In this document: positions 5,557 to 27,290 of the stretch, piece by piece
How the letters are laid out: every line of letters starts with the position of its first letter
How positions within the stretch are numbered: the stretch's first letter is position 1
Virus record (IMG/VR): IMGVR_UViG_3300025141_000600
Location: 1-27,290 of that record
Length of the DNA stretch: 27,290 nucleotides
Strand: one strand, 5' to 3'
Origin: a virus
Position numbers and translations under genes: made by a program
Notes under the pieces: model-generated
Seen by the model: only the letters and a program-made list of their open reading frames with translations
What the model was told of the DNA's origin: nothing
The model's database searches: none

Positions 5557-5575
5557 TTCTAACAGTAGTTAGATA

Positions 5576-7120: not shown

Positions 7121-7137
7121 GTGTAAATTTTCCTTAC

Positions 7138-7779: not shown

Positions 7780-7803
7780 AAAAATAAACTCCAGTCATTA
7801 TAA

Positions 7804-7811: not shown

Positions 7812-7839
7812 TATAGCATCTATATAGTAGTAAAAATTT

Positions 7840-10258: not shown

Positions 10259-12874
10259 TTACCAAAGTATGTCCTTAAAGGCTGGGGGGAAGTATCCTAT
10301 TTTAGGGACTGTCTTTTGATTCTGGTCGCTCTCCAAGGATGCTCCTCCACTTTTTAATCGGGTACTAGATATATAGGTCTTCTCTGAATCTGTCTTCTTT
10401 ACAGAGAATAATTTGATACCATTTAACTGCCCGAAAAATAAGCTATTTATTATACCCGAAGATAATTGGCCCATAGATAAATCAAGCATATCAGTTATAT
10501 CCATAAAGGAAAATAGATCTCCCATAGGAAGTCTTTTACCTAAGTTCCCATCTTGTAAATCATAATTAGTATCTATATCAGAAAGAGTAGTTAAAAACTT
10601 ACCTAATATAGATTTTTTAGATGAGAAGCTTTCTCCTGTTTTAGATAATAACTTTATTTTATCTCCAGCAGAGAATGCTTTGGTAAAGTTTATAGCATTC
10701 AAATCAGGCTCACTGGCCGCATTTAATCCAGTTGTAGCTTTAACTGGCTTAGTAGAAACCCTACTTTTAGTATCGGAGAATGGGCTCATTATAAAAGACA
10801 TACTCCTAGTTAGTGTTTCCCCCTCAGGGTAGGAGTTCAATATAGATCTCCCTTGGAATATATTAAAATTAGTTTTATCTGTGGGGAATATACAGAAGTC
10901 GGTTAGTATTCTTCTAGGGTATACATTTCCATCTAATGGGATATCTAAATCGTTATAAGTAACTTCTATATAAAATTCAGAGTCCGTGGCGTTAGCTTCT
11001 AAAATAAAATTCCAAACAGGATCATCTGCTGGTATGTAGAAGTTTTGTCTAGGACCTGAGAAGGCAGCTACTGTAGAATTAAAATCATCATCACTGTCGT
11101 CCCCCTCCTTCCATACCCTTTTGTACTTGGCTGTAGTAGTTCTTAGAAGCCCATCAGGGGTTGAGGGAGGTTGGTCGGTAATGCTACTACCTACTAAGGA
11201 GTACAGCATAGCATCAGGTATGGAAACACCATCAGTCACCTCAGTACCAAAGGTAGCACTTACATTGAGGTCAACACTATATTCACTAACCGCATTTGGA
11301 TTAGTAGAACGATCTCCTAATAGACCTAAAATTACGGATAGTTCAGATAAATTAAATTTATATGCTTTATCCCTATCCGAATAAAGAGCTACACCGCGTA
11401 TAGAGGAGTCTCTACGAACTACGGGCAAAAACTCATTCGTCTCAAAAACATCTTCCTCTGTGCCATCTCTTTTTACAACACTTATAGCACTATCAGCTTT
11501 AAACTTTACACCACATATAGAGGAGTCTCTCCGAACTACGGAAGCCTGAAGACGAATATCTGTGGGGACGATATAGTGCCTTTGTGCAAATCTAGAGGCA
11601 TCCCCAGACTCTGTATATTTTTGTGGATTTAAACTTATTTTCTTATTTCTTATGAGGGTAAGAGCAGTATTTCTATTTGTTATTGGATCAGAAAACGTAG
11701 GAAGTCCATTTGGAAATACCGATGCCGCTCCTTCGGCAAGAGTACTAAACAAGCGCGGATTATAATCACCAATAACACCCTTGTAGGTTGCCTGTTTAAT
11801 TGCAGCTAATAGATAAGCACCTATATTATACGATGTAAGATTTTGATTCTTTAAAAAATCTAAACTATTTATTGTTTGCTGGCTAAGAGAGTTTTTAACT
11901 AAATTAGTTTGATATAAAAATGACCCAATAGTAACCCCATTAAATGGTACAAAAGTATTTGCCCCCTTTGAAGATAGCACATCTTTTAGAACTAAACTTA
12001 AGGAGGTTGCGTATATTCCATTAGGATCTAATCCTAATCTATTAGGAGTCTGTGTTGTTGCTAACTCTAATATATCCTGATTTGCCTCAATTCCATAATT
12101 ATATTTCATATCATAAGGATTGAATGCTGGATTTGTAAGAACTAAAGACGTAATAGGCTCAGACATGCTAGCAGGTTCTGGCATCCACTCTTCGGCAAGG
12201 TATTTCTCCAATGGGAGTGGTCGAGGAAGACCTCCTGGACCTATTGGGTACTTTGGTCTTCCTGTTTCTGGTGGCATACGGATGGGTCCTCCTGGTGGAA
12301 TTGGTGTTGGGCTGCCTCCTCCTCCTCCTTGAGAAGATCCTCCTCTTGGAACTTCACCCTGTTGTCCCCCTGTGGGTGCTCCTGTGCCTGTCGGTTCAAC
12401 GAGTCCCCCTCCAATAGGATCTGTTGTTCCTGGTTCTGTTGTTCCTCCTGTTCCTGTGATTGTTCCTGTTCCTGTTCCTGTTGCTCCTCCTGCACCTCCT
12501 GCTCCTGTTCCTGTTGCTCCTCCTGCACCTCCTGCTCCTGTTCCTGTTGCTCCTCCTGCACCTCCTGCTCCTGCTCCTGTTGCTCCTCCTGCACCTCCTG
12601 CTCCTGCTCCTGTTGCTCCTCCTGCACCTCCTGCTCCTGCTCCTGTTGCTCCTCCTACACCCCCAGGGCCACCGTAAGGGGGTGTGTCGGGAGGCGTGAA
12701 ACCACTCCCAGTTCCTCGTCCACTACCACCCCCAGTAGTAGGAGGTCCAGAAGGCCACCACTTAATAGTGAAGTCTGGGGGATCTACGGTTGGAGGAGAT
12801 ATAATTATTGGAGGAGCTAAACACAAGACAGGAGCAGTAGCTACTGCAGTATTAGTTTGTTGAGGATCTGCCAT
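10259..12874 (-). CDS. Large virion protein with glycine-rich tandem repeat, unknown
   Basis: No named family recognised in this 871-aa protein. It has three parts. Residues 1-65 are proline-rich (APPIIISPPTVDPP, then KWWPSGPPTTGGG). Residues about 66-205 are glycine-rich, built on an 11-residue unit GGATG(A/T)GAGGA repeated about five times, then mixed Gly/Pro/Thr; such stretches act as flexible linkers or form polyglycine-type helices. Residues about 215-871 are an ordinary globular region with no transmembrane segment, containing a duplicated VVRRDSSI(C/R)GV spaced 39 residues apart. It starts after a good AAGGAG that overlaps the previous stop. It lies between fibre-type genes and the PAAR tip gene, so a structural baseplate, spike or fibre role is likely. 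Confidence 0.85.
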   Translation of the reverse strand: MADPQQTNTAVATAPVLCLAPPIIISPPTVDPPDFTIKWWPSGPPTTGGGSGRGTGSGFTPPDTPPYGGPGGVGGATGAGAGGAGGATGAGAGGAGGATGAGAGGAGGATGTGAGGAGGATGTGAGGAGGATGTGTGTITGTGGTTEPGTTDPIGGGLVEPTGTGAPTGGQQGEVPRGGSSQGGGGGSPTPIPPGGPIRMPPETGRPKYPIGPGGLPRPLPLEKYLAEEWMPEPASMSEPITSLVLTNPAFNPYDMKYNYGIEANQDILELATTQTPNRLGLDPNGIYATSLSLVLKDVLSSKGANTFVPFNGVTIGSFLYQTNLVKNSLSQQTINSLDFLKNQNLTSYNIGAYLLAAIKQATYKGVIGDYNPRLFSTLAEGAASVFPNGLPTFSDPITNRNTALTLIRNKKISLNPQKYTESGDASRFAQRHYIVPTDIRLQASVVRRDSSICGVKFKADSAISVVKRDGTEEDVFETNEFLPVVRRDSSIRGVALYSDRDKAYKFNLSELSVILGLLGDRSTNPNAVSEYSVDLNVSATFGTEVTDGVSIPDAMLYSLVGSSITDQPPSTPDGLLRTTTAKYKRVWKEGDDSDDDFNSTVAAFSGPRQNFYIPADDPVWNFILEANATDSEFYIEVTYNDLDIPLDGNVYPRRILTDFCIFPTDKTNFNIFQGRSILNSYPEGETLTRSMSFIMSPFSDTKSRVSTKPVKATTGLNAASEPDLNAINFTKAFSAGDKIKLLSKTGESFSSKKSILGKFLTTLSDIDTNYDLQDGNLGKRLPMGDLFSFMDITDMLDLSMGQLSSGIINSLFFGQLNGIKLFSVKKTDSEKTYISSTRLKSGGASLESDQNQKTVPKIGYFPPAFKDILW
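11391..11424. repeat. 34-bp direct repeat within the 871-aa gene, copy 1
   Basis: This 34-nt stretch matches 11508-11541 with three mismatches. The copies are exactly 117 nt (39 codons) apart and in frame, encoding VVRRDSSIRGV here. It points to an internal duplication in the protein. Confidence 0.85.
11508..11541. repeat. 34-bp direct repeat within the 871-aa gene, copy 2
   Basis: Partner of 11391-11424, three mismatches, encoding VVRRDSSICGV. A related VVKRDGTEE lies between the two copies, so the unit may have been duplicated more than once. Confidence 0.85.
12481..12660. repeat. 33-bp tandem repeat coding for glycine-rich units
   Basis: A 33-nt unit beginning TTGCTCCTCCTGCACCTCCT (plus strand) repeats at 12481, 12514, 12547, 12580 and 12613, with a partial sixth copy at 12646. 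Copies differ mainly at one base (Ala/Thr codon). The period is 11 codons, so slippage changes protein length without breaking the frame. It lies wholly within the 871-aa gene. Confidence 0.93.
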
Positions 12875-12884
12875 TCCCTACTCC

Positions 12885-15584
12885 TTATTCAATGGTTATC
12901 TTACTCACACCAGTAAGGGGAGTACCTGTTATTAAATTACCTTGAGTTCCAGGAGCTTCCACAGGAGCCACCAAAGTATTTCCCGAACCATAGGTTGATC
13001 TACTCGTAGGAGATGCTTCATATCCAATTATTGTAAACTTAACAGTTGGATAGTATGCTGCACCAAACTTAGGGGCATGTCTAGTTAAAGCGTTGAGTTC
13101 GTTAGTTTGGCCTTCCATATTCCATATATTGTTTTTAAACTCAGGCAAGCACACGGCATAAGATAGCCATTGGTATGCCAAGGCTTCGGTAATAGCACCA
13201 TTTCTGGTATTTCCCGTACCCCCAGTAACTCCCACCTTGTCTGTAATTTCCCCAAGGTTGTTAACCATGCCTTCGTTGGGACTTGCTGTTTGTGGAATAG
13301 GTTGAGCTGCTGAGTTTATTTGGAACGAAGCACTTCTAACCCCTTGTGTTGAGGTCATAGTTCCCTTATTAACAGATAACCCCGACCCAAGCCCCACATT
13401 GGTAGGAGTTGCTCCTGCACTATCTGATCTTGAGGCAGCGGCAACAGGACCACAATTAACATATTCAACTAAAATATCATAATCGTTGACCCAAGAAGGG
13501 AATGTCATATTAATTTTTTTAGAAACAACGCTAATGGAGCCTTGCCCCACATTCTCATCCCCATAACCAAAACCATAAGCCTTTGCCAAACGTGCAGTCG
13601 TAGTATTAGTAGCATTACCTGGAACTGCTCCTGGAACATAGGCTAATGGCCTATCAGAAGTTTGGCCCTCAAACCACATCCACCAAGTAGGCTTAGAGCT
13701 GGCACTCTCTCCAGTTACAGCAGCGAAATTCATACTATCCATAGGCATATCCCACTCTGGAAGTAGAGGAATATTTCTTTGCCCTGTGGCAAGTCCCAAA
13801 TATGTCTTACTAGTATTTGATACATAAGAGGTATTGGGATCTCCAATCCACTTACTTAGTTCAGTCTGTCTATTCCTATATACCCACTCCAAAAAGGCTT
13901 CGCGAGTCTTCTGAGTTGCATCATCTAAAAAGGCTTTAGAAGAAGAATAGCCAGCAAAGCTGTGGGTGTTTCCTGTACTTAGGTAATCAGAGGCTTGAAA
14001 TGCGGTTGTATTTGTGGTAGCTGTGCCCCACGGGTCGTCTATATCAGTATTGTTCTCGTTCATAGTTAATAGGGTGCCCTCAACCCCGTAAGCAAGACCA
14101 CCCATAACATAGTCCGTGTAAATTGCTCTACCAGAGTCCGAGATAGTTGCGGCTACATCCGTGGTTACATTATCTAATGCATCCTGAAGCTGGAAAGCAC
14201 CAACAGCGGGGTTAGCCAAAGATAGGGGAGGGTTGGCCGCTGCAACTCCTGCTCTTTCGTTATAAGTAAATTCAGTAGTCCGTAAAAATGGACGAATATC
14301 TATAATATCTTTTGCTACTATGTCTGTGGAGCCCTTGTTTACTACGATGTATGCAAGGGGTAGAGCGGTCTGCCCTATAAGTTGGTAATCATCTGCATCT
14401 ATATTTAAAGCCAATAGGGGAGCCATGTTAACTAAATCATCAGGAGATGGGAAACTTCCATGTACTTTATTCCCATCAATATCCTTTATCCCTAAATTAG
14501 CAGTGACATCCTTATCGTTTATATTAGCTACGATACGAGTAGAGCCTACAGCACCTGGATCATTACATCCAGCCGCTGTTTGAATACTAACAGGGCTTGT
14601 TGAATCAGACTTAGAGATACCAATACCTGCTCCCCTAATGATACCAAGAGTAGGTTGGTACATAGTTTTCTGTGTGGTTGTGGCAGTATCACAAAATCCA
14701 TCACTAAAATCTTGTGTGGCAGCAGAGTTTGAATCTATAGGGACACTATACAATACTAACAGATCAATTCTTTGGTTTGCCCCAGGTATTGGTACTGCTG
14801 AACCCGCAGAATTATGATAATAAAAATCATCATCCTTCCATTCTGGTATTTCAATCTCAGATCCGTCAAAGTCTACTACCGCTGTACGGAATACCCCTCT
14901 CCACATTTTTACAAAACCTAAATGGATTTTAGATAAGTTCTCATAAGTATATGTGGCATTGGAAACATTTTTTCCAATAATTAGACCAAGTGTGGTTGGA
15001 GTTAGTGGTGCAAAATTAGACTGACCAGGCCAAGTTGCTGATCCACGCAACATGTCAGGGCTTCCCTCTGAATTATTTTTAGATGTGGACCACCTACCTC
15101 CCATTCCTCCAGGAGAAGTATGGAAGGTATAGGTATACTCTAACCCGTTTAGGTTATATGGGCTACCTGTGGTTCCTGTACTAATAAAAGCACTCCAGAT
15201 CTCGTCTCTCTTATCCGTACTAAAGGTTTCCATTAAAGTGGGAATTAAAGTAGTTCCTCCCACAGAAGTACCTTGTAATGCTAATTGGGATAAGGGATTC
15301 CTTATATCAAAGGCATCATTAACTCTGGATGTAAAGGTTCCTGGATTAACTCCTACAAACCTTCCACCTACTGGCTTAGGTTTAAGCTGTTTAATATTTG
15401 TAATATTAATTTCACTGTTTTCAGTTAGGAAAGTAGAAGCACTCCCCTTCCCTTCTACTTGATTTTTAATATATAGAATATTCTCTTCCAGTTGCATTAT
15501 AGGAAGATTATCAACCTGATAAAAATATGGGTCATTTGCCTTGTAGTACCTAATCGGTTGAGTAAATTTGTATGGAGTTGCCAT
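12885..15584 (-). CDS. Large tail appendage/baseplate protein with DNLPI N-terminal motif
   Basis: This 899-aa protein has no signal peptide or membrane segment. Its N-terminus (YKANDPYFYQVDNLPIMQLE, residues about 14-33, then ENILYIKNQV) matches the start of the following-strand neighbour, the 1165-aa protein (SSAFYNWEQDNLPIYDLEDR), so both probably use the same short domain to dock on the same partner, likely the baseplate. The rest is beta-rich, with Gly/Thr/Asn-rich loops, a conserved-looking IDIRPFLRTTEF segment near the middle and a Ser/Thr/Gly-rich second half. Its ATG shares a base with the stop of the 1165-aa gene (TAATG). I do not recognise a receptor-binding or enzymatic domain. 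A structural fibre or baseplate-rim role is inferred from context. Confidence 0.85.
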   Translation of the reverse strand: MATPYKFTQPIRYYKANDPYFYQVDNLPIMQLEENILYIKNQVEGKGSASTFLTENSEINITNIKQLKPKPVGGRFVGVNPGTFTSRVNDAFDIRNPLSQLALQGTSVGGTTLIPTLMETFSTDKRDEIWSAFISTGTTGSPYNLNGLEYTYTFHTSPGGMGGRWSTSKNNSEGSPDMLRGSATWPGQSNFAPLTPTTLGLIIGKNVSNATYTYENLSKIHLGFVKMWRGVFRTAVVDFDGSEIEIPEWKDDDFYYHNSAGSAVPIPGANQRIDLLVLYSVPIDSNSAATQDFSDGFCDTATTTQKTMYQPTLGIIRGAGIGISKSDSTSPVSIQTAAGCNDPGAVGSTRIVANINDKDVTANLGIKDIDGNKVHGSFPSPDDLVNMAPLLALNIDADDYQLIGQTALPLAYIVVNKGSTDIVAKDIIDIRPFLRTTEFTYNERAGVAAANPPLSLANPAVGAFQLQDALDNVTTDVAATISDSGRAIYTDYVMGGLAYGVEGTLLTMNENNTDIDDPWGTATTNTTAFQASDYLSTGNTHSFAGYSSSKAFLDDATQKTREAFLEWVYRNRQTELSKWIGDPNTSYVSNTSKTYLGLATGQRNIPLLPEWDMPMDSMNFAAVTGESASSKPTWWMWFEGQTSDRPLAYVPGAVPGNATNTTTARLAKAYGFGYGDENVGQGSISVVSKKINMTFPSWVNDYDILVEYVNCGPVAAASRSDSAGATPTNVGLGSGLSVNKGTMTSTQGVRSASFQINSAAQPIPQTASPNEGMVNNLGEITDKVGVTGGTGNTRNGAITEALAYQWLSYAVCLPEFKNNIWNMEGQTNELNALTRHAPKFGAAYYPTVKFTIIGYEASPTSRSTYGSGNTLVAPVEAPGTQGNLITGTPLTGVSKITIE

Positions 15585-18500
15585 TATAAGTCTCTATCTA
15601 AATCAAACAGGTTTGCAGACCCTAACCCTATCCCGTGAGTGGCATCAGCAGCGTAGAACCCCTCTCCTGGGTAGTCTGTGGTGGATTCGTAATAACTAAA
15701 TATCTTCTTCCTGCCAGAAGTACCTAATGTACCATTCTTAGCATTAGCGAAAGTATTCATAGCTGATTCGTCTAGCCAAATCCTAGCCTCCGAATCACAA
15801 GGCAGCATAGCTGAAGTGTAGTAGAACGAAGACGCAACATTTTGTACTTGCTGATCTGCGGGTAATGTTTCTATGTACCCACTAAATCCTAAGTCCTGAT
15901 ATATTGCACTCACACTTGCAGGAGGAGTTGCACTACAATCAGAGGATGTTGAATACCCTTGAGCGAACAATTGGTATGGGGTTCCTTTTATTAAAGTTGC
16001 ATCGGACGGAAAATTATACCCCATACTATTAAAAGCAGTGGGATTTTGCGGAGGCATATAGAAATGTCCTGCTGCTGTCTTTGGATGCCCTAAGAATTTA
16101 GCTTTAGGGTGTGGAGATACATAAATTCTAAAGGGACCAACATTTTGGAAAGTGGTTCTTCCATAATAACCCAAACCTCCTCCATGATTAACACCTTGTC
16201 CAAAAGTATCCAATACGCTAAGGCTTGAAGTATTAGGCGTAGATGAGGGAGCCCCAGAAAGCGGTGTCCATGCTGCTCCCGATACCCAACATGCACTAGG
16301 TCCGTAATAAATACTACTAAGATCTTGGGGGTGTGTAGTCCCTAAAGCATTTAGAGTTGAATTGCCTGTAGATAGGTAGGAAGCATGTAATTCTGAGTTA
16401 TCCGCAATATTCCAAATTCTAAGAAGTTCACAATGACCTACTGTAGAGAAGTCGTAATATGCACCTGAGGTGTTTTGCCATCCCACGGGGAAGGTCACAT
16501 TCTTTACATTGACTTGGCTATCCCCGACTGCCCTAACACACATACCTCCATATGACAGCCCAGACACTGAGTCAGCTGCTGGCAAGCCTATTTCTTTTAG
16601 AGGATTCGCTGTCGCTGGGACAGTTCTCGCGGATGTAACCACGAGGGCGGCACCCGCAGTTGAGGGGAATTTAGCTTGGTTCACCAAATTATAAGAAGTA
16701 TAGTTTACAAAGGGATTTGGATAAAACTGTAAGTATCCAGAAGCACACAGAGACGATAAGGCATACCCACCTGTACCTGTTGGGTAGTCTTTATTTGTAA
16801 GGTACTTACTATCCCAGTGTTGGTGATAGTCTCCCATGTCGTGAATGTCAAGTACAGAGTTTCTATTAGCCACTAAACAGGCTCTTGTTGCATGTAGATC
16901 TACCTTGGTGTGATTACCTGTATCCCCCAAGTTCCATCCACTAGCATCTATAATGCCGTCCTTGTGGTGCGGACCAAATTCTATAGTTGATCCGTCTTCG
17001 GCCAGTGCATCAACACCAAACTGCCCTATGAATGTGGGTCCCGCAACGTAAACATGGGAACCAGTTCCTGCATAAACCCCTGCTATCTTTTGTTGCTTAG
17101 ACCATTTCTGTGGACCTAAGATTATGGTATTATCGTTCTTATGCCCAAACATATCAAGATTACTATTATTTGTGACCCTAAATGCAGCACCCTTTATAGC
17201 ACCTGTTGCTTGGTAAGCGGTAGCGAGTTCGTCTGCTACATCCAAGTTTAGATACTTACACCCTACCGCATTCATGTAAGATCCGTTATCCACTACAACC
17301 GCAGGTAGAGTTTGTTTGGTTGTAGTAGCACCCTCTACCCTACTCTCTACTTGATGGTTTCCACTGAAGGATAATCTCTCATAAACAGAATCCATACCGC
17401 TTACATAAGTGGGTACAAATTCAGATGAGTCTAATAATACATGTTGGCCGTTAGCCTCAAAATTGGTTACAGGATAGAACGGACCAGCCTCATAACCAGT
17501 AGCGGTAGCATTTTTGTTATAATTAAATATGGATCCCTTGGCGACTAAACCCCCTTCGGCGTTATTATCAACCGTAACTTGGGAGACTTTACACACAGAG
17601 TTTTCTAAAAGAATTCCTATTTTGTTCTGGAAGGAAGCTATTCTATGGCTTGTATCAATTAAGGATTCTTTTGCCCGAATACCTTCTTGTACATTAAAGA
17701 AGGTTTGTAAGACAATAGTTTCTGACCCATCAACTTGTGCAAGCGAGTCACCTGCCATATTAGTCCCCTTCCTTGTGTTAGGGGGGGTTATAATATTAGA
17801 ATTATTTAAATCTATCCCTATTAAATTTCTATAGAAGCAGAACGGAGAATCAGCAGGTAATCCCTTGCCATTCTCTGTGGACGCGCTTAAAGTTACATTA
17901 GAATTATATGCTCGTAACCCAGCAGTAGGATTAGTTGTTACTTTAGAATCTAGAAAGTTAGGATTAGTTTCCAATTCATAATTATGAAAAGCAATAAATC
18001 CTCTACTCAAAATTACATTAGAATTATTTAACTGCATCCCTGCATCCGTACATCGCGCAGCAGTACAGTTCTCTATGACCACCTCAGAGTTTGTTATATC
18101 AAATCCAACTTTTGTAGTCTGTGACCCCGCAGCAGTTATATTAGCTTGGCTTGCTCCGTCAACGCAGAAGCCTCTAATGTACACTTTTCCTGCACAATCT
18201 TTTACGGAAACATTACTTAAGGAGTTTGCATACACAAACCCTATAGTTCTCTTGGTACTTAATGGAGCAACAATACCAGCCCTTTGCTGTGCAATTCCGT
18301 TATTAAGCACCACAGTATCAGAGCTAACAGAACTATCCTCATAAATATTAACATTAAACTGGTTTGCATTAGCCGCCCCAGTACTAAGTAAGGTCCCAGC
18401 AGTATCATTAAATCTTGAAGAAATGGTTACTGTTTTTCCAGCATTCTCCCCCACTACACCCCACTCAGGGTTTAGTACAAAGGCTCTTGTATATTTATTC

Positions 18501-19081
18501 CACCAACTCGTCTTATCTGGGTTTTTAGAACCAACAACAACTCCCAACCCTAAAGACTTAGAGTCTGTCATCGTATTGCTTGCGTCTGCGGAGGAGAAAG
18601 TTAATATAGCACTAGCATTAGCATTCACTCCCGAAACTGCGGAGGAGGGTGATGTTGAACTACCACATAAAACTTTAGCAAAGCCTCTATTAATTATCTC
18701 TATACCTGCTCCAGAACCTTCAAATTCTTTACTCTCTAAACGTAAATCACCTAAGGAACCGCTTGTACATACCTCAATTATTACTGGGAATCTGAGGGTG
18801 TTTGGTAGAGCATCAATAGCTGCGGATACTGTCCCAAAAACCTTCTTGTTGTCAATACCACAGTCGGATACTGTCAACATTAAACCGTCTACAGATGAGG
18901 CGGGATATCCTGCCATCTCATATAAGAAATTATCTCGATCTTCTAAATCATAGATTGGGAGGTTATCTTGCTCCCAGTTATAGAATGCGCTGGAGTCGAA
19001 CTTGTATACAGGATCTACCCAGTTATTAATTAACTGACCTGTGCCAGATGCTAGATATAAATCTTGAGGTAAAAATGCCAT
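15584..19081 (-). CDS. Right-handed beta-helix tail protein (putative tailspike or fibre)
   Basis: This 1165-aa protein begins with the same DNLPI-x-x-LE docking motif as the 899-aa neighbour (residues about 38-48), then AGYPASSVDG. From about residue 85 to 760 it shows the regular short-strand pattern of a parallel beta-helix: repeated V/I-x-I triplets and asparagine ladders such as VGFDITNSEVVIENC, GMQLNNSNVILSRG, LRAYNSNVTLSA, IGIDLNNSNIITP and GILLENSVCKVSQVTV. Such helices form trimeric phage spikes that bind or cut surface polysaccharide. I cannot pick out catalytic acids, so enzyme activity is open. The end is not repetitive and includes HGGGLGYYGRTTFQNVGPFR. It starts 1 nt beyond the stop of the 208-aa gene. 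Confidence 0.87.
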   Translation of the reverse strand: MAFLPQDLYLASGTGQLINNWVDPVYKFDSSAFYNWEQDNLPIYDLEDRDNFLYEMAGYPASSVDGLMLTVSDCGIDNKKVFGTVSAAIDALPNTLRFPVIIEVCTSGSLGDLRLESKEFEGSGAGIEIINRGFAKVLCGSSTSPSSAVSGVNANASAILTFSSADASNTMTDSKSLGLGVVVGSKNPDKTSWWNKYTRAFVLNPEWGVVGENAGKTVTISSRFNDTAGTLLSTGAANANQFNVNIYEDSSVSSDTVVLNNGIAQQRAGIVAPLSTKRTIGFVYANSLSNVSVKDCAGKVYIRGFCVDGASQANITAAGSQTTKVGFDITNSEVVIENCTAARCTDAGMQLNNSNVILSRGFIAFHNYELETNPNFLDSKVTTNPTAGLRAYNSNVTLSASTENGKGLPADSPFCFYRNLIGIDLNNSNIITPPNTRKGTNMAGDSLAQVDGSETIVLQTFFNVQEGIRAKESLIDTSHRIASFQNKIGILLENSVCKVSQVTVDNNAEGGLVAKGSIFNYNKNATATGYEAGPFYPVTNFEANGQHVLLDSSEFVPTYVSGMDSVYERLSFSGNHQVESRVEGATTTKQTLPAVVVDNGSYMNAVGCKYLNLDVADELATAYQATGAIKGAAFRVTNNSNLDMFGHKNDNTIILGPQKWSKQQKIAGVYAGTGSHVYVAGPTFIGQFGVDALAEDGSTIEFGPHHKDGIIDASGWNLGDTGNHTKVDLHATRACLVANRNSVLDIHDMGDYHQHWDSKYLTNKDYPTGTGGYALSSLCASGYLQFYPNPFVNYTSYNLVNQAKFPSTAGAALVVTSARTVPATANPLKEIGLPAADSVSGLSYGGMCVRAVGDSQVNVKNVTFPVGWQNTSGAYYDFSTVGHCELLRIWNIADNSELHASYLSTGNSTLNALGTTHPQDLSSIYYGPSACWVSGAAWTPLSGAPSSTPNTSSLSVLDTFGQGVNHGGGLGYYGRTTFQNVGPFRIYVSPHPKAKFLGHPKTAAGHFYMPPQNPTAFNSMGYNFPSDATLIKGTPYQLFAQGYSTSSDCSATPPASVSAIYQDLGFSGYIETLPADQQVQNVASSFYYTSAMLPCDSEARIWLDESAMNTFANAKNGTLGTSGRKKIFSYYESTTDYPGEGFYAADATHGIGLGSANLFDLDRDL

Positions 19082-19082: not shown

Positions 19083-19709
19083 TTAAAAGTTCAAAGTCCA
19101 TTTAAATACTAATGCAAAGTCGTTAGTTTTTGCTATATTTGTGAAAGGTCTATAAGCAACTAATTGAGACCTTTTCGTATTTCTTCCTAAGGGATTCTGC
19201 ATAAATAACCCAACTTCATTGACAGTTAAGTTATTACAGGACTCCTTATCTATGTAAAGTATATAGGTAAGAGAATTAAGATCCACTCGTTTAATACTAT
19301 TATCAGAGATCAGACCAAAAAACCAAGTATCTCCATAACTTCCTCCTACCGTGGGCTTCGCCCCTCCATCCCAGTCCATTAATTCGTGCGCCTCTAAAGG
19401 TAGAAAGGAATCAGTGGTGGTTTGGTATTGGGAACCACCCCCTACTTGCCCCAAAGCGGAAACCAAGCTAGTTTCAGACACGCCATACGAGCCAACCTTA
19501 GTATCCCCAGACACGCCTATTTGGAAATAACGAATTTGGAAATTAGTTATATCCGCAGCACCTGACCCTGCGTAAAGAAGTCCCAGACCAACACCCATAC
19601 CTGATGTGATGGTATTGGGATCATTAAGAACCCTTTCTTCGGTCCCATCCCCAAAAACTTTATATATTTCGAGATGTCCTGAAACATTTAAATTATCATT
19701 ATTACTCAT
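19083..19709 (-). CDS. Small tail protein, paralogue of the 225-aa and 661-aa neighbours
   Basis: This 208-aa protein shares its layout with the 225-aa gene just before it: near the N-terminus GHLEIYKVFGDGTEERVLND, then a FQIGVSGDT element near residue 69, then EVGLFMQNPLG, and a closing LVAYRPFTNIAKTNDFALVF with KWTLNF as the last residues. The paired ending (AYR-F-x4-KT-x-F-L-V-W-F) is the clearest link. I do not know a formal family name; proteins with this kind of ending occur among phage baseplate and fibre-connector genes. It probably builds a small beta-sandwich that attaches to the baseplate or fibres. It is followed at once by the beta-helix gene, for which it might act as a connector. 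Confidence 0.8.
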   Translation of the reverse strand: MSNNDNLNVSGHLEIYKVFGDGTEERVLNDPNTITSGMGVGLGLLYAGSGAADITNFQIRYFQIGVSGDTKVGSYGVSETSLVSALGQVGGGSQYQTTTDSFLPLEAHELMDWDGGAKPTVGGSYGDTWFFGLISDNSIKRVDLNSLTYILYIDKESCNNLTVNEVGLFMQNPLGRNTKRSQLVAYRPFTNIAKTNDFALVFKWTLNF

Positions 19710-19733
19710 CTTTTACCTACTTATTATAGCTAA

Positions 19734-20411
19734 CTATACTCCTGTATAATGGTTATCTACATTGGTAGATATACCCAAAAATCCAACTGACCAATGGACA
19801 ACTAATGAAAACTCAGAGGTTTTTGTTACGGGAGTAAAACTTCTATAAGCCATCAATAGAGGGGAGTCTTCTTTAAACCCTTTTGGGTTCTTTGCAAATA
19901 AACCTATTTCACTTATTTCCTTACCGTTTCCTGTTTTTTCATCTAACACAATTTCTGATTCAAAGGAATCCATAAAAAACTTGGATAGTCTTCCTTCTTT
20001 GATCTTGGAGAAATACTCATCAGTACCTGAGAACGCTATTGAGGAGAGCACAGCACTAGTAAATAAAAGCTCCGTATAGGTGCTCCCCCCATCATCTGTG
20101 GAGGCATTAAACCCTCTATACTTACTTTCTACAATAAAGTCTGTGTCGTCTCCGTAATCATCCCAACTAAATGGGGTACTAAGATGATAGAAATAACTAG
20201 ATGTAGTAACAGCAGGATCATAATCCATAGAGCTTGTTCCCACTTGAAAATAATAAGGAGAGTAACTATCTGTATTTAGGGATCCTCCCCCTCTTTGTAT
20301 ATCAATAAAGGAAGACCCTAGACCCGCAGTAACCAGATTAGCTCTATCTACTATTGTGTCTTCAGTTCCATCACTGTAAACTTTACAAATTGTAATATGT
20401 CCTCTAAGCAT
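19734..20411 (-). CDS. Small tail protein, paralogue of the 208-aa and 661-aa neighbours
   Basis: This 225-aa protein starts GHITICKVYSDGTEDTIVDR, has a YYFQVGTSS element near residue 55, EIGLFAKNPKGF near 170, and MAYRSFTPVTKTSEFSLVVH then WSVGF close to the end. All four elements recur in order in the 208-aa protein, so the pair came from a tandem duplication; the first and last also occur in the 661-aa protein. Its ATG overlaps the end of the 661-aa gene by 8 nt and it stops with TAG 24 nt before the next gene. Role as tail or baseplate accessory protein is inferred from position and likeness to its neighbours. Confidence 0.8.
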   Translation of the reverse strand: MLRGHITICKVYSDGTEDTIVDRANLVTAGLGSSFIDIQRGGGSLNTDSYSPYYFQVGTSSMDYDPAVTTSSYFYHLSTPFSWDDYGDDTDFIVESKYRGFNASTDDGGSTYTELLFTSAVLSSIAFSGTDEYFSKIKEGRLSKFFMDSFESEIVLDEKTGNGKEISEIGLFAKNPKGFKEDSPLLMAYRSFTPVTKTSEFSLVVHWSVGFLGISTNVDNHYTGV

Positions 20412-22389
20412 TTCCTGTTGCCCTAAAATCTAGTGTCCATCTTATTTTTAAATCTGCATAATTTAAAGAACCTGCTGTTGCTCCGTTATCACTAATTCTT
20501 GATAAATTATCTATAAATTTCTTAGAACTAAATAGTCTATATCTAAGTGGGTTGTCTATTGGATCAAAAACAAAGGGAGGAGAAGAATATTTAAGTGCTT
20601 CCTTTATATCCACAGTCCATAACCCTATGTTGTATATACCCCCATAAAGGTTAGCCAGCCCAAGATCACCAGACAACACGTTAGTTTCGTATACTACCCT
20701 ACCATTATTTTGATAAGATGCAGCTTGAGAAGACACAATTAATCCGTGTCCTGACAAGGTTACACCGTTTCCATCATCTCCAACTCTTTCATTTATAGGA
20801 TCATAAACCCTACCCACATATCCAGAAATATCCATAGAGCTTGCTTCATTAAAGCCGCTGTTATAATTTCCTGAGACAATTTGATTTTCAAAAGCAGCAG
20901 ACGTTGTTAAACTACTGACCATAGACCAGTTTGTACCTCCCGTGCTAGACCCTTCAGGAAAACATCCTAATTGATAAGCATTTACTCCAATATAATTATT
21001 AGGTACACCATCAGAGGAGTTTTTAGCATTCCATAAAGAAGATAAATTATTCTGTTCTATAAATTTAGACTGCAAAGCAAACTTCTGTCTATAGGGTATT
21101 AAATTTAAATTTTGACCCAAATCAAAACCCGTAACCACAGAGCTTAAAGAAAACTCTGATTCCGTATTAGACCCCTCTAATCGTCCGTCTAAGGGGTCGG
21201 GGTATGTGGGGAGTCCAGTATAGGGGTAGTACGAGGAAACATCAGGAGGACCGCTCACACGGACGATAGGAGCACTAGCCGCAGACTCCAACCCAACTCC
21301 AGAGAAAGACCTACCCATAGCCAACGTGGATCCTGAGAAGTCCCAATTATTGGGGCATACTCCGTCTGTCCTAAATTGAAGCTCCGTTGGGAATTTACCT
21401 ACCTCAAGTTGGCACCCATATATATAAGCACCTCCTGATGCGCCACCATCAGTACATAGCGCAGGATAAAAAACCGCTTCTATCCCTGAAGTTGCGGAGG
21501 GAGAAAGAACGGAAACCCAAGCCCTATACCAATTATCCCCCGCATATTCTACTCCAGCATTTGCTTCCCAATTAGGAACAACCCAGCCATTTGCCTCTGT
21601 TCTGGCAGATTCAGTTCTCCACGTTTGGTTTACGCCACTTATAGACCCATTAGTTAGATCAGTATATAAATTAATAGCGGTTCTTGCATTACCTAAACCC
21701 GAATCTCCGCTGTAACCATCCCCCTTACTTGTTAGCTTTATATGTATACCTCCATGATCAGTATCATCGTTGCTGTTGCAACCAGTGTTATTAATGGGGT
21801 AATCACCAAAAGCTTGTTTTGTGTATAGGGACCAACACAACCAAGTATCTTGAAAAGCACTTGCGGTAAAATCTACTCCCCCATACCCTTCAAGCATACG
21901 GCACGGATGGAAGTACCCCGAAGTAGCTCCAGCGGCGAGATTTATATCATCATCCACCACCGTAACAACATGTGCGGTAGAGGAGGGTATATTAGAAAAC
22001 ATTGAGGGGGGCGAAACTTCAGGAGTAGAACTAATACTATTAATAGTCCCACCAACTACTGAAAATAAATCTGTGGACGAGGGTGTTGAGTAGGGATTTA
22101 AATTTCTATTAGCTACTGTTAGTCCAGGTGACGGACAAGTATAAGAAGAAACAGGATAAGCATGGGCATTTCTGAAGTACCCCTGTGCGTCCTTTCCAAA
22201 GGATATGGCCTGTACAACCCAGTTTGAAGTATCCATAACTCTAGGTGCAATACCCAAAGTGCTTGAGGGTGCAGTAAGCATATCGACAATAGTTTGCCCT
22301 GCTCCGTTTACGACAAGATTATCCTCCTCGTAAACAAGCTTTTCTCGATCTCCATCTAAGACCGCAAATATTTCTACCTTACCTTTCAT
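20404..22389 (-). CDS. Tail fibre/baseplate protein with jelly-roll-like insert
   Basis: This 661-aa protein looks like the same fold as the 225- and 208-aa neighbours split by a large insert. Residues 1-80 (KGKVEIFAVLDGDREKLVYE, then NLVVNGAGQ and VQAISFGKD) match their N-terminal elements, and the last 75 residues (PLRYRLFSSKKFIDNLSRIS ... LKIRWTLDF) match their endings. The insert, about residues 150-345, has the pattern of phage carbohydrate-binding jelly-rolls: DNWYRAWVSVLSPS followed by AYIYGCQLEVGKFPTELQFR. That suggests binding to host-surface glycans, as an inference. Its start lies 2 nt after the stop of the gp7-like gene, so it belongs to the same operon. Confidence 0.82.
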   Translation of the reverse strand: MKGKVEIFAVLDGDREKLVYEEDNLVVNGAGQTIVDMLTAPSSTLGIAPRVMDTSNWVVQAISFGKDAQGYFRNAHAYPVSSYTCPSPGLTVANRNLNPYSTPSSTDLFSVVGGTINSISSTPEVSPPSMFSNIPSSTAHVVTVVDDDINLAAGATSGYFHPCRMLEGYGGVDFTASAFQDTWLCWSLYTKQAFGDYPINNTGCNSNDDTDHGGIHIKLTSKGDGYSGDSGLGNARTAINLYTDLTNGSISGVNQTWRTESARTEANGWVVPNWEANAGVEYAGDNWYRAWVSVLSPSATSGIEAVFYPALCTDGGASGGAYIYGCQLEVGKFPTELQFRTDGVCPNNWDFSGSTLAMGRSFSGVGLESAASAPIVRVSGPPDVSSYYPYTGLPTYPDPLDGRLEGSNTESEFSLSSVVTGFDLGQNLNLIPYRQKFALQSKFIEQNNLSSLWNAKNSSDGVPNNYIGVNAYQLGCFPEGSSTGGTNWSMVSSLTTSAAFENQIVSGNYNSGFNEASSMDISGYVGRVYDPINERVGDDGNGVTLSGHGLIVSSQAASYQNNGRVVYETNVLSGDLGLANLYGGIYNIGLWTVDIKEALKYSSPPFVFDPIDNPLRYRLFSSKKFIDNLSRISDNGATAGSLNYADLKIRWTLDFRATGNA

Positions 22390-22391: not shown

Positions 22392-25300
22392 TTAGCCTTC
22401 TACTATATTTAACTCTGTAAGATTTCCGTAGCTTCCACTCACTGGATCATACATATGAGATTGTGATCTATAATTCATCCTGCTGCCTCCACTAACCTCC
22501 ATCACACTTGAAGTAATTGTTGCATTTTTACTAGCTAGTCCCGTACTTATATCTTTAAAGAATCTAAATACAGCCTTTAAATCATTAGAATCTAATTGTG
22601 CATCTCCATATTTAGTCTGTATTACAGCTTTATTATAGTTCGTGATATCTCTAATAGAAATGTCCTCAAACACTATAAACTTAGTATTACTTCCCTGAGA
22701 AGCAAATAATTCTAGTGTATATTTTTGATTTGTTCTGTGTACTTTTCCAAAATTCTGTAAGTAGTCCCCTGTTGGAGTAAGTGCTTTGTTATTTTTTGTT
22801 GTAAACCTAAACTTAAGCTCCTGTAAAGTATTCTCATTTATATTAGCTATAGCTTGGGGGTTTGATCCAGGAATAACGGTCTCTACAAAAAGAGGCTCCC
22901 AACACCTTCTGTCATAAACATCAACAGTAATTGGTGCCAGATCATTAGATCCTCCCTCCCCAGATCCCGTCATGCTGTCTAAGTTCTTTACAGCAAATTC
23001 TTGGTTCTGTGCTAAATTTCTGACTTGGTTTATTCCGTTAGCAACAAAAGCGGTAGTGTCATAGGAGTCCCACTTATCTAGATGCACACCACACTCATCA
23101 TTAATCCCTAAAGGAGAGTAAGACCAGATCTTATTATTTTCAGGTTCTGTGTGTATCCAAAACCCCAAAGATAGCCCCCCAGTCAGAGAGCTGCTAACGT
23201 CCATGCAATGAGCCTTAACCGTAACCTCGTACTCATGCTCTGGCTCTAAGAAGTTTCTAGACTTGTTAGTTAGATCAGAGTTATCAATCTTTATCCTAAC
23301 CCTAGGCAATCTATCGCTTCCCTCTGGGCAGTGATATTTAATGATTTGGTTATTTATTAAATATTTAGCAAAGGAGTATTTATTTTGATCATTTCTAGAT
23401 AAATTAAAGATTGAGAATATCGGATGACTATCAAAGGTAGAGGGGGTAGAGGTATCCACCAACTCAACAGCACTAACCAAGTGATTATTTCTAAACTCTG
23501 GGTTTGTTAGATATACATCAGAAGCATCAGATGCGGTATATGTTCCCACATCTGCATGAGTACCCGAAACTCCCGATGCACTAAGCACCCCGCTTCCTCC
23601 ATAATACGACAAATCAACTTCGTATACAGGAGAACTTGCAGCAAAATACCCGCTAGTTCCTAATGCAGATCCGTCAATATCAAAATTAGAGTTATAAATT
23701 AATGGTCCAAAAGTATGGCTAAACAAGTTAGGAATACCCATTAAGTTATAGTTATTGTTAGTACCGTGGCCTCCGTATAAGCTGTTGTATACGTTATAAA
23801 ATGCAGACACCTTTCTTCCAAAAGTAAAGTGTTCATAATAATTTAAGGATTGATCTTCGGCCTCACTATTTATTAGGTAGTTTCCAATTGATCTTGGTAC
23901 ATCTATTCCTCCATAAAGAGCAGCTTCCCCATACCAAGAACTAAAATTAACAGGATTTATGAGATTACTACTAACGGGCCAAGAAACATTCCTACTTCCG
24001 TCCTCATTAAAGTAACCCGAAACTATGGAGCTTGCCTGTAAATATTTCTCTGCATCGTGTATCTTGTTCATCATATAGAGAATTTCAGGCAATTGCCCTC
24101 TTCTACCGTAGGTTACACAAGAAGATGTTGGTACGTTTTGTTTAACTCTAGAAGCAAAAGTATTACTTATGTCGTACCCAAACATAGAGCTTGGGGATAA
24201 CAGGTTCTGGCATATGTCCCATACTGGGTGGAGGTTGGAGGTATCTATCAGTTCCCCGATTCCGTTGCCCCAATCATTTTGTCTCTTAGCTACTTCTTTA
24301 AAATCCATTGATGAGGGTATAAACCCTAAAGGTAAATAACCTAGAGAAGAGGAATAGTAAGTGGTGGATAGTTCTAAACTTCCTGGATTATTCTTCCCCC
24401 CTCTAGTGAACATCTTGTTCTCTGGGAGAAGGTTGTGGAAGTTTCTCCTACGCAATGAGTTTCTTGGGACTGATGATATAAAGGAGGTGTTTCCAGATAG
24501 CAATACATCGTTTATATTATTTACATCTGTTCTATGGAACCTTTTAGGGGTAAGTCCGTTGGCGGCGGCAAGAGCCTCCATGTCTAAGGCACAAGTCCCA
24601 TAATTGGTAGTAACGTGGGCTGATCCTTCATACAGATTATTAAAATTAGGTCTCCACTCTCGGCAATCATTATCAGCCAAGGCATCCAAAGCATCTGCTA
24701 CATCAGACACGGAAAGCAAAACACGAGACACAGCATGAGCAGGTATTACTTGATCTAATACTCTCATTACTTTTGTCATTCCATACTTCGACGTAGAGTT
24801 AAGCTGCTGCGATGACCAATCAAAGGTACTAGAATCGAAGGACATTAAGAAGTGAGAAGACTTGCCGTTCCACATACTTAACAGGCTTACGGGATCTGGT
24901 GTCTTCTGCTTAGTTGCGTTCTTTAATATAGTATTATAATTTGGTGGATACTGCTTGTCTTTTGTAAAGATTAAAAAGTTATTAATAACTTTTGAAAGAT
25001 CAACACTGTTTATAAGATTATCATTTAAGTACTTTCGTACTTCCTCTGCAAAGTTCTTATCCACGCCATAACAGATTAAATAATATTTAATTCTATCTAG
25101 CATATTATCTGTTACAAAAGTTTGTGTGTAATACTGCCTCTTCTCATAGGGAGGTACTAAATAAGGTCTATCCCTATAGAAGAATACAAAATTAGGATCA
25201 TAATCTAAAACTAGGTCCTCAGAGCTAGAAGTGTGTACATCCCCCGTCATAAATGTGGGCCAATTATAATCATTAGGATCATACTCACCACTAGGGGGCA

Positions 25301-26861
25301 TTATATGATAAACACCTGTATAGGCTTCTCCATCTAAAAGAAGCTTAGGTTGGGGGAAGGGCTCACCAGCTAACAAGAAGCTATTTGGAAATTCTCGAAC
25401 CAAATCAAACAGAATCTTATCTACCAAATACTTAATATTGGTATCCATACTATTCGGAGAATAGTTAGCCACTCCAAACTGCCGCGCCAGCGCGGGGGTA
25501 TAAACATCCAAACTATCTAAAGCGGGGGAACTTGTAGCTAAAGAATAGTAGAGTATATCAGGAATATAGGATTCCCACAACTCAGATAAAGTATCGCTAG
25601 TAGTTACATTAAAGACTCCTGTAGAGAATAAAGTATCCAACAAATATTGAATAGATCTACGGGTGCCCTTCATCTTATAAATGTCTACAGCGTTTCTAAG
25701 TTGAACTCTCCACTTATCAACATCAGCCCCTATAAACTGCCATCCAATAAGCTCTCCTAGTAACTCTAAAAACTCATCAGGGCATTTGCCTATATCGTAA
25801 AGAACCCCTATCTCGTTATGCTCAGTCAGCCTGTCGCTCATACAGAAAGACATGGCCTGTAAGAATCTAGTAAGGGGTCCTGCCTCCTCAGTATCCGTTA
25901 TAAGGACACCATCATCACTTACTGTTGAAGTTGCAAAGTAATTACTGAAGGAATCTTCTACCTTAGTATCTGGGGTGTCCATAAACTGCGGAGAGTATAC
26001 CACGCTGTTAAGTGTTTGAAGTCTATCTAATAATTGGGTTCCGCTAGTCCATGTTCCAGCACTAATGTCTACAGAAGAAGTATAGTGCTGTGGTGTAATC
26101 CTATCTGATAACCCCCAATACTGCTCGTTCTTCCAAAGATACTCTTGATAAATATTAAGAGTATCTTCTAATTCTACGGATCTTCCCTGCCAAAGAGTGT
26201 CCGTAAGCAATGTGGCTATGGAGTTAGATGGATCAAATCCACCTGCTGGTCCGCCTCTATTTAGGAAATAAACCCACCCTAGATTATTAGCCAAGTACTT
26301 GTATGTCCCTGAAGAATCATTAGCGTAAGCACTGGCCGTTAGGGTAGCTAAGTCCTTGTCCGCCGTTGTAACAGCAGGGATAGATGGTAGAAATGTTCCA
26401 CTAATATATGACAAGAAGGCTTCGCTTGTGCTGTATTCAGAATACTTCCTACCTAGGGGAAATAATATATTTCTTTGGAAATCATCAGGACGTATCTCAG
26501 CAGGAGCATTTTGTTTATAGAAATATTTAGCAAACCCTTTTGGTGTGCCTATAGAAGATAAGTAAGTATCATATGTTAATGCAGACACAGGCAGAATAGT
26601 GTTCTGATTTTTATTAGCTAGTATATGTGAATTTATTAACTGATTTGGATAAGATACATGCGTTCCACTTATAGTCTGCTCGTCTGCAAAGTAGAACTTG
26701 GGAATAATCTTCTTTAGAGCATCTAAATAATTTCTCTTAAAATACGTCTGTGGAGAACTTATATTTTGGACATTATTTTTAGATGAGACTACTGAAACTA
26801 TTTCAGGAATAATCTTATCTAAATCATTGAACCTAGATTTTTTTACATATCTTCTTGCCAT
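22392..26861 (-). CDS. Baseplate wedge protein, T4 gp7 / P2 gpI-like, with large C-terminal extension
   Basis: This 1489-aa protein is the longest in the window. Around residues 335-430 it holds the feature that identifies P2 gpI and related wedge proteins: LYDIGKCPDEFLELLGELIG followed by DVDKWRVQLRNAVDIYKMKG and TRRSIQYLLDTLF, the pattern W/K-R-x-x-I/V-x-x-A-x-x-I/Y-x-x-KGT-x-x-x-I/L-x-x-L. It directly follows a gp6/J-like gene, the standard wedge pair (J then I). P2 gpI is only about 176 aa and T4 gp7 about 1032 aa, so most of this protein is phage-specific. The C-terminal 300 residues include strand patterns such as EHEYEVTVKAHCMD and KYTLELFASQGSNTKFIVFE that resemble jelly-roll carbohydrate-binding modules. 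It begins at TAATG with the previous stop. Confidence 0.82.
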   Translation of the reverse strand: MARRYVKKSRFNDLDKIIPEIVSVVSSKNNVQNISSPQTYFKRNYLDALKKIIPKFYFADEQTISGTHVSYPNQLINSHILANKNQNTILPVSALTYDTYLSSIGTPKGFAKYFYKQNAPAEIRPDDFQRNILFPLGRKYSEYSTSEAFLSYISGTFLPSIPAVTTADKDLATLTASAYANDSSGTYKYLANNLGWVYFLNRGGPAGGFDPSNSIATLLTDTLWQGRSVELEDTLNIYQEYLWKNEQYWGLSDRITPQHYTSSVDISAGTWTSGTQLLDRLQTLNSVVYSPQFMDTPDTKVEDSFSNYFATSTVSDDGVLITDTEEAGPLTRFLQAMSFCMSDRLTEHNEIGVLYDIGKCPDEFLELLGELIGWQFIGADVDKWRVQLRNAVDIYKMKGTRRSIQYLLDTLFSTGVFNVTTSDTLSELWESYIPDILYYSLATSSPALDSLDVYTPALARQFGVANYSPNSMDTNIKYLVDKILFDLVREFPNSFLLAGEPFPQPKLLLDGEAYTGVYHIMPPSGEYDPNDYNWPTFMTGDVHTSSSEDLVLDYDPNFVFFYRDRPYLVPPYEKRQYYTQTFVTDNMLDRIKYYLICYGVDKNFAEEVRKYLNDNLINSVDLSKVINNFLIFTKDKQYPPNYNTILKNATKQKTPDPVSLLSMWNGKSSHFLMSFDSSTFDWSSQQLNSTSKYGMTKVMRVLDQVIPAHAVSRVLLSVSDVADALDALADNDCREWRPNFNNLYEGSAHVTTNYGTCALDMEALAAANGLTPKRFHRTDVNNINDVLLSGNTSFISSVPRNSLRRRNFHNLLPENKMFTRGGKNNPGSLELSTTYYSSSLGYLPLGFIPSSMDFKEVAKRQNDWGNGIGELIDTSNLHPVWDICQNLLSPSSMFGYDISNTFASRVKQNVPTSSCVTYGRRGQLPEILYMMNKIHDAEKYLQASSIVSGYFNEDGSRNVSWPVSSNLINPVNFSSWYGEAALYGGIDVPRSIGNYLINSEAEDQSLNYYEHFTFGRKVSAFYNVYNSLYGGHGTNNNYNLMGIPNLFSHTFGPLIYNSNFDIDGSALGTSGYFAASSPVYEVDLSYYGGSGVLSASGVSGTHADVGTYTASDASDVYLTNPEFRNNHLVSAVELVDTSTPSTFDSHPIFSIFNLSRNDQNKYSFAKYLINNQIIKYHCPEGSDRLPRVRIKIDNSDLTNKSRNFLEPEHEYEVTVKAHCMDVSSSLTGGLSLGFWIHTEPENNKIWSYSPLGINDECGVHLDKWDSYDTTAFVANGINQVRNLAQNQEFAVKNLDSMTGSGEGGSNDLAPITVDVYDRRCWEPLFVETVIPGSNPQAIANINENTLQELKFRFTTKNNKALTPTGDYLQNFGKVHRTNQKYTLELFASQGSNTKFIVFEDISIRDITNYNKAVIQTKYGDAQLDSNDLKAVFRFFKDISTGLASKNATITSSVMEVSGGSRMNYRSQSHMYDPVSGSYGNLTELNIVEG

Positions 26862-27290
26862 TAAATTAGAACAGTATTTATTGTAAAGTTATTTAATTGA
26901 ATAATTTCATTAAAATCTACTTCGGTTATTTCTGGTAGATTATCCACGGTGGAGTATCGCACGTTAGGTAGTCTGAATATTTCTCTACTAAGCTCAGTAG
27001 AGATAAAGGCTTTTCCAAAATCAGTATTATCCAATAAGAAGTGATTACGAATAACTCCAGCAACTTCTTGCTCCACTGTACTTTGGAAGTTTTCTAATTC
27101 TCTATCTATGCGTATAGTTACTACTATATCTAATGTCCTAATAAGGCCATCTACCACGGCTATCTCATCAGTTAACATCTTCTTAGGTTCTATTTCTGCT
27201 AATAAAGATTCTTTAAATGTAGTTGAGGCTTTCTGTAGTCTAAGCTCATCTAGCTTTTCTAACACATATACATCAATAATGTTTGCGGAA
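26861..27290 (-). CDS. 3' end of a baseplate wedge protein, T4 gp6 / baseplate-J-like (partial)
   Basis: The frame is open through the window edge: nine codons upstream of the apparent GTG at 27265 read SANIIDVYV without a stop, so that GTG is internal and the gene begins outside the window. The visible 143 residues are the C-terminal part: NIIDVYVLEKLDELRL, then EIAVVDGLIRTLDIVVTIRI, a helix RELENFQSTVEQEVAGVIRN and FISTELSREIFRLPNVRYST. In baseplate J-like and gp6-like proteins this end of the molecule carries exactly such an 'x-N-V-x-V-Y-V-L' strand and a 'V-x-V-x-I' strand followed by a helix. Position immediately before the gpI/gp7-like gene supports the call. Ends with TAA overlapping the next ATG. 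Confidence 0.75.
   Translation of the reverse strand, partial: SANIIDVYVLEKLDELRLQKASTTFKESLLAEIEPKKMLTDEIAVVDGLIRTLDIVVTIRIDRELENFQSTVEQEVAGVIRNHFLLDNTDFGKAFISTELSREIFRLPNVRYSTVDNLPEITEVDFNEIIQLNNFTINTVLI

Follow-up and report, generated by a model that had tools for sequence, protein, structure and literature searches.

A gp8-like gene cassette that may display exchangeable polysaccharide-active modules on the baseplate of uncultivated T4-like phages

What is the function of three consecutive, apparently related genes in a T4-like phage, and what is the large extra domain that one of them carries? The question is raised by a locus in the virus record IMGVR_UViG_3300025141_000600, of which the 27,290 bases analysed here are referred to as the window. 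The window is T4-like: its major capsid protein matches the Pfam family Gp23 (E 2.9e-80), and the sheath, tube (gp19), tail sheath stabiliser (gp15) and prohead protease (gp21) families of Pfam are also represented. An initial annotation, made from the sequence alone, had proposed that proteins of 208, 225 and 661 amino acids (aa) arose by tandem duplication, followed by insertion of a sugar-binding module into a surface loop of the longest. We believe it likely that these genes form a gp8-like baseplate cassette displaying exchangeable polysaccharide-active modules, a reading in which the location and the sugar binding are what we infer. The three genes, and the parts of the first, are as follows.

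19083..19709, minus strand: third paralogue, 208 aa, with a predicted fold resembling gp8/gp105; all 66 complete relatives are compact
19734..20411, minus strand: second paralogue, 225 aa; compact in the window, enlarged in 21 of 43 complete relatives
20404..22389, minus strand: first paralogue, 661 aa; a putative gp8-like wedge protein, divergent, whose slot 1 holds a large module
22162..22389, minus strand: residues 1-76 of the first paralogue, its N-terminal scaffold, which shares homology with the start of the second and third (boundary set by eye)
21355..22161, minus strand: slot-1 module, residues ~77-345, which the 12 compact orthologues in alignment A3 lack (boundaries set by eye)
21385..21651, minus strand: part of the module that matches NF048003 GTA_spike_fiber below its cut-off, residues 247-335, containing WYR...YIYGCQLE
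20404..21354, minus strand: C-terminal scaffold, residues 346-661, with RWTLDF near its end

Judged by sequence, the 208- and 225-aa proteins are clearly paralogues. They share 27% identity over 214 columns by BLASTP (E 7e-23) and match with E 3.5e-32 and a probability of 99.9% in profile-profile comparison, in keeping with the shared elements that the initial annotation had seen in them. That annotation had also given the 661-aa protein the same start and ending, a likeness that single-sequence BLAST against each paralogue places near chance (best E 0.068 and 0.006) and that our first family profiles recovered at the N-terminus only (E ~1e-4, probability 58-59%). With wider profiles, in which 17 compact first-gene relatives were compared by hhalign with 22 relatives of the other two genes, the profile-profile comparison that had been suggested as a check matched both ends in collinear order, the N-terminus with E 2.6e-6 and a probability of 89% (query columns 4-75) and the C-terminus with E 7.9e-5 and a probability of 61% (columns 272-373). 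The N-terminal score was 50.8; 60 column shuffles gave 21.8 at most, and the reversed profile scored 15.0. As a separate sub-profile, the N-terminus was matched by none of 100 shuffles against either partner; for the C-terminus, the observed score was reached by none of 100 against the 208-aa family (probability 26%) and by one of 100 against the 225-aa family (probability 8%). At profile level, then, the start and the ending are shared beyond chance, the ending less strongly, and common ancestry of all three proteins is supported.

PHROG 5417, a family without assigned function, overlaps the 208- and 225-aa proteins at their C-termini, and the 661-aa protein has no family in Pfam or PHROGs. 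Searches by tblastn of 50,697 phage records gave no match to the 661-aa protein at E 0.01, none to the 225-aa protein at E 1, and three Vibrio phages at E 0.3 for the 208-aa protein. Relatives of the third gene occur in the Vibrio phages D69, D181 and D148 and in the Pseudomonas putida phage vB_PpuM-Voja-6 and its kin. Scanning bacterial and archaeal genome contigs with the paralogue profile gave 17 pattern matches, none of which was confirmed as a relative.

How much of the 661-aa protein is insertion? The ~450 extra residues counted by the initial annotation hold as arithmetic against the paralogues but not as the size of an insert: relative to its own orthologues the protein has ~265 extra residues (roughly 77-345), and the remainder is a longer scaffold common to the aligned orthologues. 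We therefore rejected the idea that all 450 residues are a single insertion. On these alignments, the first gene is a divergent member of the family with its own longer scaffold. In alignment A4, which holds 14 first-gene proteins, 12 lack the insert and measure 362-417 aa; it is present in the window and in L020 (725 aa; L-numbers are the labels of the comparison loci), where it follows the strand that ends in '...AISFGKDA' and precedes the conserved 'LP.YP.P' region. Two further contigs are not independent evidence, L002 being identical to the window (100% over 13,139 bases) and L001 nearly so (99.97% over 7,295). The scaffold of L047 (629 aa) is closest to that of the compact L016 (70% identity), yet it carries a module in the same slot, so that L016 and L047 form an empty and occupied pair. 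We rejected a single recent insertion as the source of the L047 and window modules, their similarity by BLAST being only marginal (best E 0.002 over 48 columns). In L003, the first cassette gene encodes 1540 aa; slot 1 holds extra sequence, and so, by eye, does the region near the C-terminus.

A clue to the nature of the insert is a match of residues 247-335 to the NCBIfam model NF048003, GTA_spike_fiber (32.2 bits, E 1.4e-7), which recurs in L020 as the only other of the 14 A4 proteins. The L047 module matches the same model (31 bits, E 3.2e-7, below the cut-off) and also the structure of Rcc01080, the head spike fibre of the gene transfer agent RcGTA (6tb9, E 0.0033). The RcGTA head spike fibre binds the Rhodobacter capsule (PMC10218006; PMC7296036). 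Several points weigh against a firm assignment. The window score is below the curated cut-off of 36 bits, and we therefore call the module GTA-spike-like rather than a member of the family. The single proteins of L020 and L107 are also below it (31.9 and 34.4 bits), and exceed it in the scan of whole records, where neighbouring pieces are summed. The model further matches 5 of 14 control genomes, three of them over the cut-off. Weak matches of the insert in VIA are to generic beta-sandwiches with Z of at most 6.3, from a low-confidence model, and the VIA and BFVD rows of the 661-aa model were not used as evidence of fold. No carbohydrate-binding family of Pfam, CBM_4_9 or other, was found in the window module or the L020 and L047 proteins at E up to 5, nor in the L047 module at E up to 1. 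With the NF048003 and 6tb9 matches, we regard a carbohydrate-type identity of the insert as plausible.

Other searches with the module returned little. Against the PDB, its profile found only platelet-activating factor acetylhydrolase subunits (E 0.13 or worse), which we judged to be chance. In phage records, tblastn gave weak rows only, the best being cyanophages (E 2) in which a giant structural protein adjoining gp7 has a WYR...Y.WGA motif in common with the module. One of these is Synechococcus phage S-ShM2 (L070, 1-8778), where the giant protein beside gp7 holds GWYRAF...VYMWGAKL (tblastn E 2) in a stretch resembling the C-terminal half of the window module. Module scans of viral contigs added no contigs to those already known.

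Is the insert peculiar to the window, or does the cassette take up extra sequence by rule? Searching viral contigs with a profile built from second and third genes gave at least 246 relatives, of which 80 were kept, and 66 distinct clusters were found with the gene after the cassette as a marker. All 66 complete third genes are compact (189-221 aa, none over 500 aa). In contrast, 21 of the 43 complete second genes and 19 of the 58 complete first genes exceed 500 aa, the compact ones measuring 217-272 aa and 290-422 aa (39 of 58), respectively; L047 and L058 were left out of these counts, as their contigs end early. Fisher p values against the third genes are 6.9e-11 for the second and 8.3e-8 for the first, although the contigs are related and the counts are not phylogenetically independent (L109-L112, for example, are near copies), which tempers the position rule. 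The break in profile hits falls at the window's slot in 16 of the 19 enlarged first genes and at a later loop in three (L100, L101 and L108); among the 21 enlarged second genes it falls at an internal loop in eight, and the extra sequence forms a C-terminal tail in 13.

The GTA_spike_fiber model follows the same distribution. It was sought in 50 of the 63 listed records, 13 related ones having been dropped by hand, and matches 15 of them at E 1e-3, five over the cut-off (L109, L100, L020, L107 and L141). All 15 are among the 23 records with an enlarged gene and none among the 27 without one (in L050 only the first gene is visible), and each of the 20 match rows falls within a first- or second-type gene, the L109 match, which runs beyond the locus, having been placed by its open frame.

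Not all cargo is of this type, and many enlarged genes carry cargo that matches no identified family. The second gene of L128 (1784-5953) encodes a gp8-like wedge domain in residues 1-204, fused to what looks like a complete sulfatase (Pfam PF00884, E 1.2e-23) in which CSPTR, the sulfatase signature motif, stands at residue 300. The third cassette gene follows directly, and since cassette genes flank the sulfatase gene on both sides a chimeric contig is unlikely. This is the only sulfatase among the 50 records, and its sulfatase part has no tblastn match in the 50,697 phage records at E 1e-3. In the second genes of L144 (4971-7613) and L058 (9023-10816), a gp8-like domain is followed by an alpha/beta-hydrolase region of polyhydroxyalkanoate-depolymerase/esterase type with a GFSMG motif; NF050058 matches with E 4e-6 and 2.4e-6, and all hydrolase matches are below the curated cut-offs. 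L146 has a weak match to CBM_4_9 (E 0.007). In the second genes of L105, L107, L109-L112, L118 and L119, ~360-410 residues of cargo without an assigned family lie in an internal loop, at positions ~101-118 of the G profile. Tail proteins with an FGE-sulfatase domain are mentioned as targets of diversity-generating elements (PMC12724379), and no virion-borne sulfatase enzyme is described in the passages on sulfatases of PMC9853417, PMC13288928 or PMC12724379.

The history of the window's first gene differs from that of its neighbours. In a tree of the first gene (369 shared columns), the window and L020 form a clade with support of 100/100 and a branch of 1.35. In a quick tree of the flanks (1877 columns, 12 rows), the window groups with L013 and L016, L020 and L030 lie outside, and a grouping of the window with L020 is rejected by the approximately unbiased (AU) test (p-AU 0.0015; this p value and the next are descriptive, the tested groups having been named after the identity tables and trees were seen). 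The flank tree separates L020 and L030 from the rest; with the window present, the first-gene data reject this split (p-AU 2.7e-5). Without the window, the best, unconstrained first-gene tree itself has the split (support 87/88), and hence the conflict is due to the window. Sliding identity does not discriminate over residues 1-60 (58-68% to four flank relatives, 62% to L020), whereas L020 is closer over residues 31-90 and in every comparable interval from residue 331 to the end (43-76% versus 18-61%). The residues in between are the module, which has no counterpart in compact relatives. On this pattern, the exchanged piece is most of the gene, module included, and the trees show it as exchanged with an L020-like lineage independently of the neighbouring genes. 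Of the proposed duplication followed by insertion, common ancestry and a module between shared ends remain; a simple local history does not, because the insert is ~265 aa, the first gene is divergent and most of this copy was exchanged.

What kind of protein offers these slots? The predicted structure of the 208-aa protein is of moderate quality (mean predicted local distance difference test score, pLDDT, 72; predicted template modelling score, pTM, 0.76). In the PDB, Foldseek ranks three chains of A511 gp105 and the phi812 arm as its four best rows, with a best E of 2.5e-3. In VIA, eleven rows with Z 5.1-7.1 are all tail, baseplate or neck proteins of tailed viruses, among them T4 gp8 (1n7z, Z 5.4), A511 gp105 (Z 5.7), phi812, phiKZ gp139 and HFTV1, before a drop to Z 2.7 at the twelfth row, a porin. 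There are reasons for caution. Foldseek TM-scores to gp105 are only 0.31-0.37, with a root mean square deviation near 16; Z of 5-7 is within the range that VIA calls common, and Z under 8 is not decisive; and profile searches against PDB sequences gave no gp8 or gp105, the 208-aa family matching Phi92 gp135 weakly (E 0.14). Most of the best BFVD rows are uncharacterised; archaeal filamentous virus proteins are among them, alongside two named tail fibres and, more weakly, one named baseplate protein, and the fold may therefore extend beyond wedge proteins. On balance, the model points, with moderate strength, to the wedge-connector fold of T4 gp8 and A511 gp105. As the predicted structure of the 661-aa protein is unusable (mean pLDDT 36), a gp8-like fold is assigned to it from the homology of its ends.

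Gene order agrees with such a placement. The genes on either side of the cassette in the window are as follows.

22392..26861, minus strand: gp7-like baseplate wedge protein, with a Tail_P2_I / TIGR02242 region (both below cut-off)
26861..27265, minus strand: gp6-like wedge protein, C-terminal part, probably cut by the window end
15584..19081, minus strand: 1165-aa protein downstream of the cassette; its homologues were the marker by which third paralogues were located

In T4, gene 8 follows gene 7. Here the spacings from the gp7-like gene through the first, second and third paralogues to the 1165-aa gene are 2, -8, 24 and 1 nucleotides, and in the relatives L026 and L010 the order is gp25 (Pfam, E 7.5e-13), gp6-like, gp7-like and then the cassette, which is thus encoded with the wedge genes and after gp6 and gp7. 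The gp7-like orthologue of L010 matches Tail_P2_I with 21 bits, just above the Pfam cut-off of 20.6. The gp6-like label in the window is weak, being based on phrog_6, a baseplate wedge subunit (E 0.019), on position and on a 535-aa relative in L010, which has no Pfam match. In L003, two open reading frames (1465-4188 and 4201-8001; 907 and 1266 aa) stand in place of the single gp7-like gene, the 1266-aa one carrying Tail_P2_I (E 1.9e-5). Elsewhere in the window (10259-12874), an 871-aa protein has a long Gly/Thr/Ala-rich repeat near its N-terminus and no Pfam family.

Based on these observations, we propose the following model. The three genes would encode gp8/gp105-like wedge connectors of an uncultivated, T4-like, contractile-tailed phage, placed after its gp6- and gp7-like genes. 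The third protein would be a plain connector. The first would carry a GTA-head-spike-like beta-sandwich in the loop after the last conserved strand of its N-terminal part, its wedge scaffold anchoring it in the baseplate and the loop holding the module outward, where the module would most likely bind host capsular or extracellular polysaccharide at first contact, before the fibres engage. With the slot empty, filled by a GTA-spike-like module or filled by others, and the gene traded independently, it would act as a plug-in display site. Baseplate location, oligomeric state and exposure are thus expectations of the model, and we are less confident of sugar binding than of the cassette reading as a whole. 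More tentatively, we suggest that plug-in display through this cassette could be general to a large group of uncultivated T4-like phages. The third protein would stay plain and serve as the fixed connector. The first would accommodate binding modules at two internal loops; the second would have modules at one internal loop or appended to its C-terminus, polysaccharide-stripping enzymes (a sulfatase and two esterase-type hydrolases) among them, and phages would trade whole alleles.

Could the inserted domain instead be structural, packing against neighbouring tail proteins or fibres for assembly or stability and binding no sugar? Its best weak structural matches, from the low-confidence model, include the Pa193/E217 baseplate/tail-fibre protein and T4 gp9, a connector, as such a role would predict. 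However, related phages lack the domain in the same slot, modules of unlike sequence swap there, and the sulfatase and hydrolase-like regions in other cassette genes fit host-surface work better than packing; we consider a structural insert unlikely. That the first gene is unrelated to the other two, its start and ending being short convergent motifs, is more improbable still. The near-chance BLAST values, the first profiles that saw the N-terminus only and the low C-terminal sub-profile probabilities are what one would expect of convergence, but two collinear ends in one comparison and an N-terminal score more than twice that of any shuffle are difficult to reconcile with it.

The position of the cassette directly after gp6- and gp7-like genes, as in T4, bears on a further alternative, namely that the three genes encode adhesin-like accessory proteins outside the wedge, and makes it about as unlikely as a structural insert. 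The precedent for such proteins is the garland of phage Milano, where gp125 and gp127, a pair with ~30% identity and the gp8/gp105 fold, lie outside the wedge (PMC10811340), and two of the paralogues described here have a similar identity. We thus favour a baseplate cassette with exchangeable modules.

How does this cassette compare with known systems? To our knowledge, T4 has one gp8 gene, with no such module in it. The likeness to T4 gp8 and A511 gp105 lies in the predicted fold of the 208-aa protein, of moderate strength, and in the gene position after a gp7-like gene; the differences are that there is no sequence match and that here there are two or three paralogues. T4 gp8 is a dimer that touches gp10, gp7 and gp6 (PMC3004832), and proteins of the gp8/gp105 type ('BW3TFN') connect receptor-binding proteins to the baseplate (PMC10811340). 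The closest parallel is Gp119 (baseplate wedge 3) of Bacillus phage Vp4, a relative of A511 gp105 that binds cells and has carbohydrate-binding modules (CBMs) that its Deep-Blue and A511 homologues lack (PMC11406892). Vp4 is a Bacillus cereus group phage, and its Gp119 is a single protein with CBM16- and xylanase-CBM-like domains (PMC11406892), whereas here uncultivated T4-like phages have a cassette of two or three paralogues, recurring slots, GTA-spike-like modules and exchange of the gene shown by trees. Rcc01080 of RcGTA resembles the insert in module type, and its fibre binds capsule polysaccharide (PMC10218006; PMC7296036). In contrast, that fibre is on the head, while here the module lies inside or behind a wedge-like scaffold and the window score is below the family cut-off. 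The 'evolved' Dit proteins of siphophages carry CBM insertions on a conserved distal tail protein (PMC10688798, PMC6669499); these are in another protein and position, and the likeness is one of function. A CBM-bearing wedge protein and CBM insertions in Dit are therefore already known. Searches of the open-access literature, from which subscription papers are largely missing, listed neither a module cassette nor a virion sulfatase; a multi-paralogue cassette with recurring slots, GTA-spike cargo, exchange and catalytic cargo were likewise not found.

The sulfatase and hydrolase domains that follow a wedge-like domain may offer enzymes for use against exopolysaccharides of bacteria or algae. 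If the reading is true, a virion-borne sulfatase would be a route through sulfated exopolysaccharide that we have not found reported in that literature. The question can be put to the test with pairs of a compact and an occupied gene, such as L016 and L047. Tail fibres are the usual basis for reading phage host range. Should wedge connectors carry exchangeable modules that bind or cleave polysaccharides, a phage could alter its adsorption specificity while its tail fibres stay the same, and host prediction for uncultivated phages should read the cassette too.

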